Origin: Candidatus Yanofskyibacteriota bacterium
GTDB lineage: Bacteria; Patescibacteriota; Minisyncoccia; 2-02-FULL-40-12; IGHO2-01-FULL-4-A
Assembly: GCA_903897805.1 (NCBI GenBank)
Contig: CAIUCV010000020.1
Location: 1-43,774, forward strand
Direction of reading: 5' to 3'
Length of the DNA stretch: 43,774 bases
Of the stretch, positions 5,401-11,548 are shown one piece after another. The translations under genes were made by a program, and so were the position numbers. Below the pieces are notes generated by a model. It was not told where the DNA came from, did no database searches, and worked only from the letters and a program-made list of their open reading frames with translations. Position 1 is the first letter of the stretch. Every line of letters begins with the position of its first letter.

Positions 5401-6990
5401 ATGGCGAAGGTAAGCGATAACAACGATGTGGTATTATTCGGCGAAACGAACTTTCGTAATAAGAAAGTAACTTTCGGCATTAAAATTGATGATCGCCGCC
5501 GGCACATATACATTGTCGGTAAGACCGGTATGGGCAAGTCGGAATTATTGAAAACCCTCGCCATACAAGATATTCAAGCCGGGCGCGGCCTTGCCTTCAT
5601 TGACCCTCACGGCGACCCCGTGGAGGACCTTTTTGCCCACATTCCGGAGGAGAGGATAAAAGACGTCATATACATTAATCCGGCCGATTTGGAATATCCG
5701 ATTGCGTTTAATGTGATGGAACAGGTTGACCCGGATAAGCGGCACTTGGTCGCCGACGGCGTAATGGGCGTTTTTAAAAAAATATGGGTTGATGTCTGGT
5801 CGCCGCGGATGGAATACATTTTAAACAACACGATCCTGGCATTGCTGGAAGTTCCGGACTCAACACTGCTCGGCATCAACCGAATGCTTGCCGAAAAAGA
5901 TTTCCGCAACTATGTGGTCAACCAACTGACAGACCCGGTGGTAAAAGCGTTCTGGACCCAGGAATTTGCCAAATACGCCGACAGATTCGCTTCCGAGGCG
6001 ACGGCTGCGATTCAGAATAAAGTCGGCCAGTTTGCTTCCTCGACCTTGGTCAGAAACATTATCGGCCAGCCAAAATCAACGATAGATATGCGGGGGATCA
6101 TGGATGACCAGAAAATTTTGCTGGTCAACATTTCCAAGGGCAGCATAGGAGAAGATGCGTCGCGCCTCCTGGGCGCTTTGATAATAACCAAGATTCAATT
6201 AGCGGCGATGTCGCGTGTTGATACGCCCGAGCGCGAAAGAAAGGATTTTACTTTGTTTGTTGACGAATTCCAGAGTTTCGCCACGGCCTCTTTTGCGAAT
6301 ATAATGTCGGAAGCGCGAAAGTATCACCTAAGCTTGGTTGTCGGGCATCAATACATTGCTCAAATGGATGAAACTGTGAGAGATGCGATTTTCGGCAACG
6401 TGGGCACGATTATAGCTTTTCGCGTCGGAGCCGAAGATGCGGAGATGCTGGAAAAAGAATTAACCCCCGAATTTTTGGCGCAGGACATCGTGAATCTGGG
6501 AATGAGAGAAGTTTATATAAAGCTGATGATAGACGGCTTGGCTTCCAGGGCGTTTTCGGCAAGAACGATGGATACACCCAGCCCCTTGCCGGTCAATAAT
6601 CGCCAGAAAGTAATTGAGTGGTCGCGGGAACATTATGCCGCCAAGCGCGATGAAGTGGAAAAAGCAATTGCCGAGTGGCACGCCCCGTTAATGGAAGAGA
6701 GACCAATGGCGTCTCGCCCAGCCGAGAGAGGCCCGAGCCGGGTGGCTTATCCGCCGCCAAGACAAGAGCCGGTTAGACAGCCAAGTCGCGATACTTTTTC
6801 AAGACCGGCACCAAGGCCAAGGGCAGAAATGACGAGGCCGGTACCGCTTTCCGAAGCTTTGAAACAGGACCCCGTAGATTTTAGGGGTCGCAAATTTTCG
6901 CCGAAACCCGCACCGGTCAAGCCGAAAGTAGAAGTGGATGTGGAGGGGTTGCGGAAGGTTTTGGAAGAGTCGGGGGCAAAGAAAGAGTAA
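5401..6990 (+). CDS. Type IV secretion/conjugation coupling-type ATPase (TraD/VirD4/DUF87-like)
   Basis: Walker A GKTGMGKSE, Walker B FTLFVDEFQSF, GLAFIDPHGD; Pro-rich C-terminal tail. Confidence 0.85.
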   Translation: MAKVSDNNDVVLFGETNFRNKKVTFGIKIDDRRRHIYIVGKTGMGKSELLKTLAIQDIQAGRGLAFIDPHGDPVEDLFAHIPEERIKDVIYINPADLEYPIAFNVMEQVDPDKRHLVADGVMGVFKKIWVDVWSPRMEYILNNTILALLEVPDSTLLGINRMLAEKDFRNYVVNQLTDPVVKAFWTQEFAKYADRFASEATAAIQNKVGQFASSTLVRNIIGQPKSTIDMRGIMDDQKILLVNISKGSIGEDASRLLGALIITKIQLAAMSRVDTPERERKDFTLFVDEFQSFATASFANIMSEARKYHLSLVVGHQYIAQMDETVRDAIFGNVGTIIAFRVGAEDAEMLEKELTPEFLAQDIVNLGMREVYIKLMIDGLASRAFSARTMDTPSPLPVNNRQKVIEWSREHYAAKRDEVEKAIAEWHAPLMEERPMASRPAERGPSRVAYPPPRQEPVRQPSRDTFSRPAPRPRAEMTRPVPLSEALKQDPVDFRGRKFSPKPAPVKPKVEVDVEGLRKVLEESGAKKE

Positions 6991-7286
6991 TGCTTGTTAA
7001 TTACCCCGATTTTTCGCTCCGTGTCCTGCGCGATAAAATCCTGTTGTGATTTTATTCGTTTTCCTGGATAAAAAAATCGTACCCCTTCCACTTCGCCCCT
7101 TCGGGGTTCCGCTACGTCCCAATTTTGTTTATCAGCGAAAAACTTCGTAAATTTCAATGGATTTGTTACCTGCCCAGCCGCCAAGACGCAAAAATTTGGG
7201 CGGGCTCGCTCCAACCTTTAGAATTATTACACTCAGGAAGCAAAAAAGAGGCAACGATTCGCGTTGTGTAGGCGGATAAAATAAAT

Positions 7287-7511
7287 ATGGCTTGGATAAT
7301 AATAGAAATAATAGCAATAGTCTTAGTCATATTTTATTTTCGCCGTGGGCGGAATGCAGTTTGGGGCGGTTTAACCCTCGGGATTATTATTGGGCTAGTA
7401 GTAATGATTTTTAAAGGCTACGACATATTTCTAATTATGAAAATTGGATCAATGGGAACAATTTTGGGATTTATCACTGAATTATTAGGGAAATTGTCTA
7501 GTAAAAAATGA
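7287..7511 (+). CDS. Small membrane protein
   Basis: Hydrophobic ORF, 74 aa. Confidence 0.45.
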   Translation: MAWIIIEIIAIVLVIFYFRRGRNAVWGGLTLGIIIGLVVMIFKGYDIFLIMKIGSMGTILGFITELLGKLSSKK

Positions 7512-7600
7512 CCCTCCTAAAACAAAATTGGTTTAAGTTAAGGGCCTTAGGGTCTAATAGCGGGCTTTGTGTTTTATGACAAGGCCTATCTATAAAATCT

Positions 7601-7891
7601 ATGAAAGAATGGCTTAAAAAATACTGGATAATCGTTCTAGTAATTCTAGTAATAACTGGGGCTTATTCTTACAAGCATTGGTACGTTCCCTATAGTGACC
7701 TAAAGAAAGGTTTTGTAATTGTAGATACTTTTAATTGCCCAGCTGGTCATCCTATTAAAGCTCATTTGGGTAGTATGATTTATCATTTCCCGGGCGACCC
7801 GTACTATGATCGGACCAGTGCGGCTAACGGCTATTGTTTTGATACTGCTCAACACGCTAAACAGCAAGGTTTTAGAGCAATAATTCGGTAG
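7601..7891 (+). CDS. Membrane-anchored small protein with 'sunset'-like domain
   Basis: N-terminal TM then CPAGHPIKAHLGSMIYHFPGDPYYDRTSAANGYCFDTAQHAKQQGFR, matching the CPIKGN...YHxPG..YYDRT...CF pattern. Confidence 0.65.
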   Translation: MKEWLKKYWIIVLVILVITGAYSYKHWYVPYSDLKKGFVIVDTFNCPAGHPIKAHLGSMIYHFPGDPYYDRTSAANGYCFDTAQHAKQQGFRAIIR

Positions 7892-7903
7892 TAATTCGAT
7901 ACT

Positions 7904-8488
7904 ATGAGTAAAAAAGTCGTGGGAATCTTAATAATAGGAGGCATATTAATCGGGGGCTATTGGCTATATCACGATAAAAACCGGGTTGCCCGGCCCATAG
8001 AAAATAAGGTTAATGAGCCTAGTCCTAAAGATACAATAATCTCCAGCTTTCTAGAAAAATATTCTGCAATCAATACAACAATTGATGGCAATACAAACTA
8101 CACATTTCAACTTGAAGACCAACTCATTAAACAAGGCAAGCCCGTCGTTCTTACTGGCCAGATAGACGATATTTTTAGAAAAGGTGATAAATTTTACCTG
8201 CGCATTTCTCCTAGCTGGTTTGATTTTGGAAGTCCGCAAAAATATTACACATTAGGTGGATGTGAGGATAAGATAGACGAGATAGCTAGTAGAAAAACTG
8301 ACGCATCGTTTGATGAAGATGAGTATGCGATTGTGGCAAAAATAGATAGCGTCAAAAAGCCCATTTTAAAGATTGACGGTTCAATTACCGAAGAGAACGA
8401 TGTAGAGTTGGAATATGCGTCATCAGACATTTTCTTAATTACTGGCGAATGTATTGATTTAGCTTTAATAAAAGATAATAAACTCTGA
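7904..8488 (+). CDS. Hypothetical single-pass membrane/secreted protein
   Basis: N-terminal TM, continuous ORF, good context. Confidence 0.55.
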   Translation: MSKKVVGILIIGGILIGGYWLYHDKNRVARPIENKVNEPSPKDTIISSFLEKYSAINTTIDGNTNYTFQLEDQLIKQGKPVVLTGQIDDIFRKGDKFYLRISPSWFDFGSPQKYYTLGGCEDKIDEIASRKTDASFDEDEYAIVAKIDSVKKPILKIDGSITEENDVELEYASSDIFLITGECIDLALIKDNKL

Positions 8489-8541
8489 TTCCACCAAATC
8501 GATGACCTAGCTAAAGCAAAAAATAATAACGCTTGATCTAT

Positions 8542-9684
8542 ATGCTGTATAAAATATCCCAAGGCCAATTATGGATAGTAAGGATAATTGCCATAATACT
8601 AGTTATTATCTTTTTTGGTTTAGCCTCCGACTCATATAATAACGGGGCCCTTTATTTTATATTCGGCATTCTCATAGCCGGCCTCTACCTTTTTTATGAA
8701 ATAGGCTGGCGGAATGCCAATAAGAATATTAAGAAGCAAGTCATCATAGCCAAAAAGGAGCTCGTCGAAGAAGAAAAAGAATATGTAAAAAGGTGGTCAT
8801 GGGGTGCTATGTGTTTGGGGTTTTGGTGGGCTATCTTCAGTAAGATAAAATGGTACACCTTTTTGTTTCTGATACCCTTTGCCAATATTTTTTTCTTATT
8901 TTATTTTGGTAAAACTGGCAAAAAGTTTTCTTGGACCAAGGGCCCATGGACTAGTTTTAATGAGTTTCGAAAACGCCAGAAAATACTTGATAAAATAGGC
9001 AAGATACTTTTTGTTTTCTGGATAATAGGTGCGATAAGCGTTCTCTCTACTCTCTTGTTGCTACAACTAGGGGAAGCTAGGGCTAAGGCCAGAGATGCAA
9101 AACGTATTGCCGACATCAATCAAATCAGATCAACGCTAGAGCTATATTACGACGACCACAATGGCGTTTACCCAAACGATACCGATAGTTTATCAGGGTA
9201 TTTTGTTAACGGTCAGATACCCGAAGACCCTTTAACATATAAGCAATATAGTTATAAAGTGCTAGATAGTAATAATCGTTATTACATCAATGGCGGGGTT
9301 AATATTAGATCGTGCGCATCCATTTATTGTCCTGTAATCGCCACCACCAACGCGGGCTATGTAAGCGGTTTAAAACCGAGTTTTAATAACGACTGGTATG
9401 AATGGCAATTTCATTTTGCAGAAACACCATTAAAAACCGAGACTGGCTACATAGGCAAGAACCTTGTAAGTGTAAGTAAGACGAAAAATGCTGGCTATCA
9501 TATATGGGCAGAATTGGAAAAATATAATAAAGCCGCCCTTTCCAGCGATGACGATATCGTAGATCCAATATTTGACGCGAATGGTAACCTCAATTTTGCT
9601 GGCGGAGTAAATGGTGCCAATGAAAGTTGTACTTCGGGCGATGCAATCGATTGTGTGTATGATTTGGGAGTGGTGCCTCAATAA
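8542..9684 (+). CDS. Polytopic membrane protein fused to a type IV pilin/GspG-like C-terminal domain
   Basis: GEARAKARDAKRIADINQIRSTLELYYDDHNGVYP pilin-like segment after an internal TM helix; N-terminal hydrophobic helices. Confidence 0.7.
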   Translation: MLYKISQGQLWIVRIIAIILVIIFFGLASDSYNNGALYFIFGILIAGLYLFYEIGWRNANKNIKKQVIIAKKELVEEEKEYVKRWSWGAMCLGFWWAIFSKIKWYTFLFLIPFANIFFLFYFGKTGKKFSWTKGPWTSFNEFRKRQKILDKIGKILFVFWIIGAISVLSTLLLLQLGEARAKARDAKRIADINQIRSTLELYYDDHNGVYPNDTDSLSGYFVNGQIPEDPLTYKQYSYKVLDSNNRYYINGGVNIRSCASIYCPVIATTNAGYVSGLKPSFNNDWYEWQFHFAETPLKTETGYIGKNLVSVSKTKNAGYHIWAELEKYNKAALSSDDDIVDPIFDANGNLNFAGGVNGANESCTSGDAIDCVYDLGVVPQ

Positions 9685-9696
9685 TCAAGGAATAAT

Positions 9697-10014
9697 ATGA
9701 CCTGGCTAAAACAAAATTGGTATAGGCTCGCTATAATTCTAATAATGCTAGGCGCATTTGGCGACTTTCCTTATTCTTATTACCAGTTTTTAAGATGGGC
9801 CACGGCAATAGCTAGTTTTTATTTGGCCTATTCTGCGTATAAAAATAAAAGAACCGAATGGACTTGGATTTTCGCTATTATCGGCATTCTTTTTAATCCA
9901 ATCGTGCCTTTTTACTTAGAAAGAGAGATGTGGCAATTCTTTAATTTGGCAGTCGCTGTCATTTATTTTATCTCAATATTCAAGTTTAAATTTAATCATG
10001 GGCAACAAATTTAA
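9697..10014 (+). CDS. Small membrane protein
   Basis: Multiple hydrophobic segments. Confidence 0.55.
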   Translation: MTWLKQNWYRLAIILIMLGAFGDFPYSYYQFLRWATAIASFYLAYSAYKNKRTEWTWIFAIIGILFNPIVPFYLEREMWQFFNLAVAVIYFISIFKFKFNHGQQI

Positions 10015-10504
10015 AGATTTCTTATACGGATTGGGGGGAATAGGTTTTATGATTTTGATAATTGGAGGTTTTGCGTTGCTAATTATGGGGGGAGCTAAGC
10101 TATTCGAGACTCTTTATCCTGCCCTAGAAAAGATTAGTACTGTTGTTTGGGGCATAGTTTGGTTATTAATATTCCTCTCCATAGCTCCTCGACTTAGAAA
10201 TTTTACTGGTAATTGGATTATCACTGGTACTTATATCGGAGGTGCCATTTTTTGGCTTTTGTGTTTCTATATTACCTATTCCTTATGGGGATTCCTAGGC
10301 ATTTTAATAGGGGTTCTGATGTTCGGGCTGGGAGTATTTTTCACGGCTCTGTTGGCTCTAATCTTTAGTGGCCAATTTATGGGAGCTCTCGGCGTCGCAT
10401 TTGTTCTAATTCAGATTTATTTGTTTAGATATCTAGGCGCTTGGATTATCACTAAATATAGGCCGAGGCAGGAGTTAAAAGAATTAGATACTATTGACAA
10501 GTAA
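9998..10504 (+). CDS. Polytopic membrane protein
   Basis: Overlaps the upstream stop by 17 nt; hydrophobic. Confidence 0.55.
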   Translation: MGNKFKDFLYGLGGIGFMILIIGGFALLIMGGAKLFETLYPALEKISTVVWGIVWLLIFLSIAPRLRNFTGNWIITGTYIGGAIFWLLCFYITYSLWGFLGILIGVLMFGLGVFFTALLALIFSGQFMGALGVAFVLIQIYLFRYLGAWIITKYRPRQELKELDTIDK

Positions 10505-10511
10505 TTAGAAA

Positions 10512-10534
10512 TTGTTGAAGTCTGACTTCAACAA
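10512..10534. repeat. Inverted repeat TTGTTGAAGTC-T-GACTTCAACAA
   Basis: Perfect 11-bp arms, 1-nt spacer. Confidence 0.7.
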
Positions 10535-10645
10535 ACTTCAAGGGCCGTTTCTGACCTTCTCGAGTTATCCACCTTTGGCCTATTGTGCGGAAAATCAGAG
10601 GTTTGCTACAATAAAGATAGGAATCTTAAAAACTAAGACATCACA

Positions 10646-10759
10646 AAAACCGTTTAATAAGTATCGGGCTTAAGGGCGTCGTAAGATTCCTTGCCCGATG
10701 TGGTTTCTCCTCGAGTGATGTCTGGGAGGAACTATGCCTGGTACTTATTAAGCGGTTTT
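10646..10759 (+). ncRNA. Candidate structured RNA: 18-bp closing stem enclosing two hairpins (three-way junction)
   Basis: 10646-10663 pairs with 10742-10759 (18 bp, one G-U); hairpin 10664-10698 (TCGGGC..AAGG/CCTT..GCCCGA); hairpin 10703-10732 (GTTTCTCC/GGAGGAAC); promoter-like TTGTGC-18-TACAAT upstream. Confidence 0.65.
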
Positions 10760-10827
10760 GTTTTGTTGGGCGGTGGTCATAGAGATGGCCCGCCTCGGGG
10801 AAAAGAGGTAGAGAGGAGGTTTTGTAA

Positions 10828-11031
10828 ATGCAAAATATTTCTGCTATCTCGCAAGTTTGCTTTCCGACCGAGGACGGGCAGTGGCTGGTTTGTAACGCCG
10901 TTAGGCGTAACGGCCAACTCATTGTTGCCAAATCTGGAAAATGGTTCAAGTTTAGAGCCTATCAGAAGAGGAAGAAGTCCTCGGCAGAAACATTGAAAGA
11001 CGCCTTATCGGCGTCTCCAACATTATCTTAA
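10828..11031 (+). CDS. 67-aa hypothetical protein
   Basis: SD GAGAGGAGG upstream of ATG; basic protein MQNISAISQVCFPTEDGQWLVCNAVRRNGQ... Confidence 0.6.
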   Translation: MQNISAISQVCFPTEDGQWLVCNAVRRNGQLIVAKSGKWFKFRAYQKRKKSSAETLKDALSASPTLS

Positions 11032-11093
11032 GAATTAAAATTTAGAGTTGTAAGTTTTCTGTCTTTATGACCACCACCCAATAATGCAAATTG

Positions 11094-11217
11094 AAAATAC
11101 TCAATTGGAAGGTAGTATGGGCCCTAAGCACTGTGGAAGATGCGCCAGTCTCTAAAACTGGTAAGCGGAGTTCAAGTCTCCGAGGGTCCACGCCTGCCTT
11201 TCAGTTGGGTATTTTTT
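11094..11217 (+). ncRNA. Candidate RNA: tRNA domain enclosed in a 22-bp outer helix, followed by a U-tract
   Basis: 11094-11115 pairs continuously with 11194-11215 (22 bp incl. 4 G-U); 3' arm runs into TTTTTT. Confidence 0.75.
11119..11190 (+). tRNA. tRNA(-like) with anticodon CUA (amber/Sup), A73, no encoded CCA
   Basis: Acceptor GGGCCCT/AGGGTCC; D arm GCA/TGC with GG in the loop; anticodon arm CCAGT-CTCTAAA-ACTGG; T arm CGGAG-TTCAAGT-CTCCG. Confidence 0.72.
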
Positions 11218-11268
11218 AATTAAAACGAGCTTAGCAAGTTATCCACAATGCGTCAATAGCTGAGTACA

Positions 11269-11305
11269 TTATACCCCCATCCCTAATAGATGGAAAAGTG
11301 TATAA
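11269..11305 (+). other. Hairpin TTATAC..CCATC/GATGG..GTATAA
   Basis: Two stacked complementary segments; terminator-like CCGCATTGCTGTGG + TTTTTTATTTTT at ~11431-11460. Confidence 0.4.
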
Positions 11306-11548
11306 GTTGATATGGTAAACTTAATGAAACCGTCTAAAACTGATAAAACCAGCTTCTTGACGCTTCTTTATCAAACTACGTTTTCTCCCATTGCTCAAAA
11401 ATGAGCGAGCTCTGATGGTTAACAAAAAACCGCATTGCTGTGGCTCTACTTTTTTATTTTTACGCTTAAAACATTTCTGGGTTGCGAAAAATCCGATTTG
11501 ATGCTAAAAGATAGCTAAGAACTTTAAAAACTTTTGAGAGGAAAAGCT

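Follow-up and report, generated by a model that had tools for sequence, protein, structure and literature searches.

Several described systems share properties with the locus reported here. Transfer-messenger RNA (tmRNA, RF00023) unites in one RNA a short open reading frame (ORF), an alanine-type (G3:U70) tRNA-like domain and pseudoknots. Type III toxin-antitoxin systems (ToxIN) place a pseudoknotted RNA and an intrinsic terminator ahead of a small protein gene. The mascRNA of MALAT1 (RF01684), cut by RNase P, forms the tRNA-like 3′ end of a longer transcript, in this instance a eukaryotic long noncoding RNA. GOLLD, ROOL and OLE are large, ornate RNAs of mobile or viral genomes that fold very stably (PMC12286853). 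Finally, tRNAs with stop anticodons are found in Patescibacteria or their viruses: the tRNA-Gly UCA of patesciphage RSA-ATP1 is a suppressor tRNA that matches a recoded genome (PMC13059738). The locus described below bears a likeness to each of these systems and departs from each.

The locus lies in a stretch of 43,774 nucleotides (hereafter the window) from a Candidatus Yanofskyibacteriota genome (Patescibacteria), which comprises 23 contigs with 621,693 bases in total and has a completeness of 90%. A preliminary description of the window had proposed an amber-anticodon tRNA at 11119–11190 of the forward strand, on which the parts of the element given below also lie. Both ARAGORN (11119–11191, anticodon CTA at position 34) and the Rfam tRNA model RF00005 (11119–11190; 45.6 bits, threshold 29) call it; its score places it 35th of the 36 tRNA matches in the genome, and the fold is that of a genuine, if weak, tRNA. 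The cloverleaf is as had been drawn: a 7-bp acceptor stem with G3:U70, a 5-bp anticodon stem with loop CU[CUA]AA (anticodon at 11152–11154), a 5-bp T stem with loop UUCAAGU, and A73 with no encoded CCA. The oddities are equally real: A8 stands with U14 and the D stem is weak (3 bp), G18G19 being present.

The acceptor stem (GGGCCCU/AGGGUCC), with G3:U70 followed by A73, has the hallmarks of tRNA-Ala, and the nearest tRNAs in the same genome are the three tRNA-Ala genes (CGC, UGC and GGC). Together these features strongly indicate, as far as sequence can, a tRNA-Ala derivative for which alanine is the likely amino acid. The label 'Pyl' that ARAGORN attaches to it reflects the anticodon only. 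tRNA-Pyl has a 6-bp anticodon stem, a single base between acceptor and D stem and a D loop lacking GG; the 5-bp anticodon stem, A8-A9 and G18G19 of the window tRNA speak against that identity. BLASTN with the tRNA region against 100 relatives and phages returned only the self-match. A pattern search for tRNAs with anticodon CTA (spacing as in the window tRNA, 14 nt before the T loop) found no other example, by the patterns used, among the 100 relatives and the class sample: the remaining matches were tRNA-Arg(UCU), tRNA-Ser(GCU) and non-tRNA sequences. Elsewhere in the source genome (L016 150–222 and L019) are a tRNA with an odd anticodon loop, of which ARAGORN reads two bases, 'gc', and a tRNA-like match at C16:44193–44262 (37.4 bits) that ARAGORN does not call.

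Does this tRNA read UAG? One explanation is that it is a working alanyl amber suppressor: RNase P would free it, AlaRS would charge it through G3:U70, and alanine would be inserted at UAG at a low level, which might have a regulatory use or make the tRNA a mistranslation payload of a mobile element. The full cloverleaf, G3:U70, A73 and the kinship with tRNA-Ala are all as such a suppressor would have them and, since AlaRS does not read the anticodon, some insertion of alanine at UAG may occur. The use of TAG in the genome speaks against this explanation. As had been noted, ten coding sequences end in TAG (of 40 in a hand-made list for the window). A larger sample of 277,772 bases was made up of the window plus 12 other stretches of the genome; of the 255 ORFs in it that reach 100 codons and do not overlap, 68 end in TAG, 135 in TAA and 52 in TGA. 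TAG is thus an ordinary stop, neither rare nor recoded, and from its use we infer the presence of release factor 1. The count of three TAG codons among the ten with an immediate second stop (7891, 20625 and 29606) holds, but the excess it hinted at does not: in the 278-kb sample a stop at +1 follows 1 of 68 TAG codons versus 15 of 187 TAA or TGA codons. The three in ten is therefore a small-sample effect, and we reject an adaptation to read-through by tandem stops. Nor does reading TAG as sense meaningfully extend ORFs around the tRNA: in the insertion described below a single likely gene (7601–7891) is prolonged in the 3′ direction, and by no more than one codon. With these observations, the singular CTA anticodon and the comparison of homologous elements given below, we regard a working suppressor as improbable.

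The structure in which the tRNA is embedded was overlooked in the preliminary description. A leader and a trailer enclose the tRNA in a 27-bp helix (I3; 11089–11219, with a core of 11094–11115 paired with 11194–11215) of −31.5 kcal/mol. This is the strongest such helix among the 34 tRNAs of the genome that were tested (mean −11.4, next −20.0 kcal/mol), and the region 11086–11222 folds with z = −8.0. At the end of the 3′ strand of the helix is a run of six T residues (11212–11217), a possible terminator of the whole unit. Another way to account for the tRNA, that it is a decayed ordinary tRNA-Ala whose anticodon drifted after capture and which happens to lie beside unrelated inverted repeats, draws on the weak D arm, A8/U14 and its low rank among the tRNAs of the genome; a helix unique among 34 tRNAs, and one that recurs around tRNA folds in four homologous elements (see below), make such decay very unlikely.

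A structured RNA of ∼600 letters, extending from about 10607 to 11217, has the tRNA as its 3′ module. Inverted repeats and folding define three modules in series: a hairpin, P1; a long-range helix, I1, around an ORF; and I3 around the tRNA. A promoter-like site of weak consensus, read from the sequence (TTGTGC-18-TACAAT; 10583–10612), precedes the element. P1 is a long terminator-like hairpin (10646–10759; z = −6.2) whose arms, 10646–10669 and 10736–10759, form 24 pairs and are followed by TTTTGTTTTGTT. It belongs to a 5′ domain with two further pairings. The first, with 10 of 10 positions complementary, joins AGGAATCTTA (10619–10628) to TAAGATTCCT (10682–10691) in the first inner hairpin of P1; the second is a pseudoknot, PK2 (10637–10722), in which all 8 positions of GACATCAC (10637–10644) are complementary to GTGATGTC (10715–10722) in the loop of the second inner hairpin. 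I1 (10757–11090) pairs 10757–10785 with 11062–11090 through 26 base pairs, and the ORF that it encloses (10828–11031) encodes a basic protein of 67 aa behind a Shine-Dalgarno sequence, AGGAGG, at 10814–10819, 8 nt 5′ of the ATG.

The stability of this fold is far above that of shuffled sequence. Region 10617–11220 gave z = −21 with 20 shuffles and −10.4 with another set of 25; in a test common to several elements the window (−10.4) stands beside three homologous elements (L082, −9.3; L084, −11.5; L132, −14.3), against −0.7 to −1.4 for coding controls. A control stretch holding a nearby tRNA-Lys scored −5.7; wherever a tRNA is present, it therefore accounts for some of the extra stability. The non-Watson-Crick positions of ten helices comprise 23 G·U and 3 A·C, a count biased by the choice of helices.

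Searches with the small protein identified homologues at six other loci, four in genomes of Patescibacteria and two on viral contigs. The viral locus L082 was found first, from the ORF, and the others through growing alignments: L084/L088 in Patescibacteria group bacterium UBA926 (genome G539), L089 in Candidatus Nomurabacteria, L132 (genome G209), L136 (genome G279) and L133 on the second viral contig. An Erf-like recombination gene on the contig of L082 speaks for an origin in a phage. Further profile matches (L085–L087, L091–L093 and L137) were set aside, those inspected being without either the motif or the RNA structure around it. BLASTN finds no alignable DNA between the window and L082. 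The order P1, ORF in a helix, tRNA or tRNA-like fold in a helix is nonetheless common to the window, L082, L084, L132 and L133, so that four of the six loci found by protein share the tRNA-in-helix architecture, with both I1 and I3. The element in L136 has P1 and I1 and lacks the tRNA; that in L089 consists of P1 and the ORF only.

The protein itself is real, as the nucleotide differences between the window and L082 at identical residues imply: 16 of 17 fall at codon position 3. Across the elements it ranges from 45 to 78 aa, with consensus CFxxxDG..hCNxhxRNGxxhxxKSGKWxKF..KKK. AlphaFold predicts a small five-stranded domain with medium confidence (pLDDT 71). A search of solved structures (PDB) with this model returned nothing below E 0.1, the protein has no match in Pfam, PHROGs, NCBIfam, PADLOC or PDB, and searches of phage and plasmid records also found nothing.

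Comparison of the 5′ domains points to conserved pairing. P1 of L089, L133 and L136 shares the motif TGGCGTAGG...ACGC...CCTACG. The segment 5′ of ACGC pairs with an upstream segment that lies mostly in a hairpin loop (kissing helix K1), and the segment 5′ of CCTACG pairs with an upstream strand of 6–10 nt (PK2). A scan of viral contigs for the RNA motif alone gave matches on 13 contigs: ten were chance matches in coding or unrelated sequence, one was L133, and two were new elements, L148 and L149. Both have the same 5′ domain and a run of six to seven T residues behind P1, followed by a different small ORF and no tRNA. For the five alignable homologues the pairings were tested at positions fixed by the motifs, PK2 being out of register in the MAFFT alignment. 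Combined P was 1.6e-4 for K1 and 1.5e-6 for PK2; segments matched their own partners over a greater length than swapped ones (PK2, 8.4 versus 5.35; K1, 6.2 versus 4.55). In the window, L084 and L132 the domain has diverged too far for alignment with these five, but by eye it shows similar pairings with upstream loops. In the window, PK2 alone gave P = 0.033, and the pairing of AGGAATCTTA with TAAGATTCCT is the probable counterpart of K1. An unguided pairing test was nominally significant for the window, L082 and L089 but not for L084.

Nine elements are thus available. All have the P1 hairpin, and in most a run of at least six T residues follows closely (L082, L089, L132, L133, L136 and L148); in the window the sequence there is T-rich only. 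The small proteins downstream of the 5′ domain in L148 (10540–10700) and L149 (minus strand, about 6470–6630) have 42–51 aa and contain RNGKKIYARDYxLK; this family is perhaps distantly related to the window protein. At 10250–10300 of L148 a perfect sigma-70-like promoter (TTGACA-17-TATAAT) stands ahead of this domain and points to a small RNA made in abundance.

A tRNA or tRNA-like fold within I3 is present in five of the nine elements. That of L084 (1239–1331, minus strand; 52.3 bits) has anticodon AGU, a long variable arm and a Thr-like acceptor; that of L133 (45.4 bits) has anticodon UGU in the loop CCUGUAA, with C at position 33. In L132 the acceptor (GGUGGGU/ACCCACC) and T arm are intact, the rest is poor and the anticodon arm degenerate (21.2 bits); in L082 an acceptor with G3:U70 (GGGCGUA/UACGUCC) and a T arm accompany a degenerate anticodon arm, without an Rfam match. 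L089, L136, L148 and L149 have no such module, which must therefore be optional. The notion that members always carry tRNAs of synthetases blind to the anticodon (Ala, Ser, Leu) was dropped, L084 being Thr-like with a Thr anticodon.

Conservation of CUA across orthologues had been proposed as a test of the amber tRNA, and the anticodon fails it: in the eight relatives the anticodon loop varies, degenerates or is missing, and none has CUA. What recurs is the acceptor-T-arm half held in a helix and not an anticodon, which suggests that selection acts on the fold and not on decoding. Since CUA is not conserved, suppression of UAG is unlikely to be the function of the element. The preliminary description had offered a low-level suppressor, a non-decoding mimic and a pseudo-tRNA as readings. 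Its cloverleaf and CUA anticodon stand, and the best fit is a module of a larger RNA that does not decode.

In the window the element is part of an insertion. Four relatives have secD, secF, g2969, g4052, a TraG-like gene and an HD gene in contiguous order, with gaps of about 60–415 bp, and lack the insertion. In the window the TraG-like gene ends at 6990 and the HD gene starts at 11534 or 11549; between them (6991–11533) lie 4.5 kb of lower GC content (0.36–0.42, versus about 0.45–0.48 around) with genes for small membrane proteins and the RNA element. The part from 6991 to 10504 holds five or six small ORFs, mostly of membrane type, one of them DUF6804. No integrase or transposase was recognised in the insertion. 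Among 392 genomes of the class, 2 had matches to the protein (E 1e-4), and among 389 genomes of a phylum sample 2 had clear matches, the source genome included in both counts; the element is rare and sporadic across Patescibacteria and viral sequences. A transposase of IS1595/ISXO2 type lies directly upstream of the element in L082 (167–1027), and in G539 a cytosine methylase and a HaeIII-like endonuclease (L117 7958–9933) adjoin it.

This setting raises the possibility of an attenuated RNA-protein unit that is toxin-antitoxin-like or interferes with phages, in which the pseudoknotted 5′ RNA would be made separately and hold the small basic protein in check. The order promoter, pseudoknotted RNA, intrinsic terminator and small protein is that of ToxIN, terminator included, and occurrence on viral contigs, the HaeIII-like restriction-modification pair in G539 and the sporadic distribution are in keeping with it. 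Yet no tandem antitoxin repeats were seen; searches of Pfam, NCBIfam and PADLOC gave no toxin of the ToxN, CptN or TenpN type, or of any other toxin family; the protein of 45–78 aa matches no known fold; and ToxIN has nothing like the long-range helices and the tRNA module. We think such a unit conceivable, if on the unlikely side.

At the level of sequence, the comparisons demonstrate the 5′ domain (P1, K1 and PK2), the conserved small basic protein, I1 in most elements, I3 with a tRNA fold in five of nine, and the insertion in the window. The explanation that we favour, and hold to be reasonably probable, is a mobile RNA element, transcribed autonomously and carried by Patescibacteria and viral (phage) genomes, in which the tRNA forms the 3′ module. 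Transcription would start at the element's own promoter, and many transcripts would end at P1, acting as intrinsic terminator or attenuator, to yield a pseudoknotted small RNA; opening of P1 and PK2, or read-through, would give the long form. From this the protein would be translated, its ORF lying in a closed RNA loop; being small and basic, it probably binds nucleic acid, perhaps its own RNA. The tRNA fold would serve as a 3′ end signal that marks or protects the end of the transcript: RNase P and CCA-adding enzymes recognise the acceptor-T-arm half. The module in the window would have arisen from a tRNA-Ala by drift of the anticodon to CUA, and some insertion of alanine at UAG may be a side effect. 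Against this explanation, the long leader-trailer helix could hinder RNase P. A more elaborate version, in which a mobile RNA under pseudoknotted-attenuator control carries the alanine-inserting amber tRNA as an active payload that alters or poisons the reading of stops in the host or in competing phages, other members carrying other odd tRNAs, strikes us as decidedly doubtful.

The mobile RNA element that we favour differs from the remaining described systems in several respects. Unlike tmRNA, its tRNA is contiguous, with its own anticodon arm, rather than built from two RNA ends, and its ORF has its own start and Shine-Dalgarno sequence. A search of the element with RF00023 gave no tmRNA match, and the genome has a separate, normal tmRNA (C5:49451–49805), which rules out a replacement of that RNA. 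Unlike suppressors of the RSA-ATP1 type, it occurs where TAG is an ordinary stop, its CUA is unconserved and its tRNA is embedded in a structured mRNA. GOLLD, ROOL and OLE share with it large size, mobile or viral surroundings and a very stable fold; the element, in contrast, has a conserved ORF, an apparent intrinsic terminator in its 5′ part and no Rfam family of its own, only tRNA reaching threshold when covariance models were run on the window, L082, L084, L089, L133 and L136. The RF01684 match is at chance level (17.4 bits, E 1.7). Searches of the open-licence literature found no description of the element.

Taken together, the element appears to represent an undescribed class of RNA with covarying pseudoknots, found in Patescibacteria and on viral contigs, that fuses in one predicted transcript an attenuator-like RNA, a small protein without family match and a tRNA fold. 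It shows how a genome with the standard code can harbour a tRNA with a stop anticodon whose purpose need not be decoding, which calls for caution in surveys of suppressor tRNAs; if the tRNA of the window is charged, it would also offer a natural supply of alanine at UAG that can be tested.
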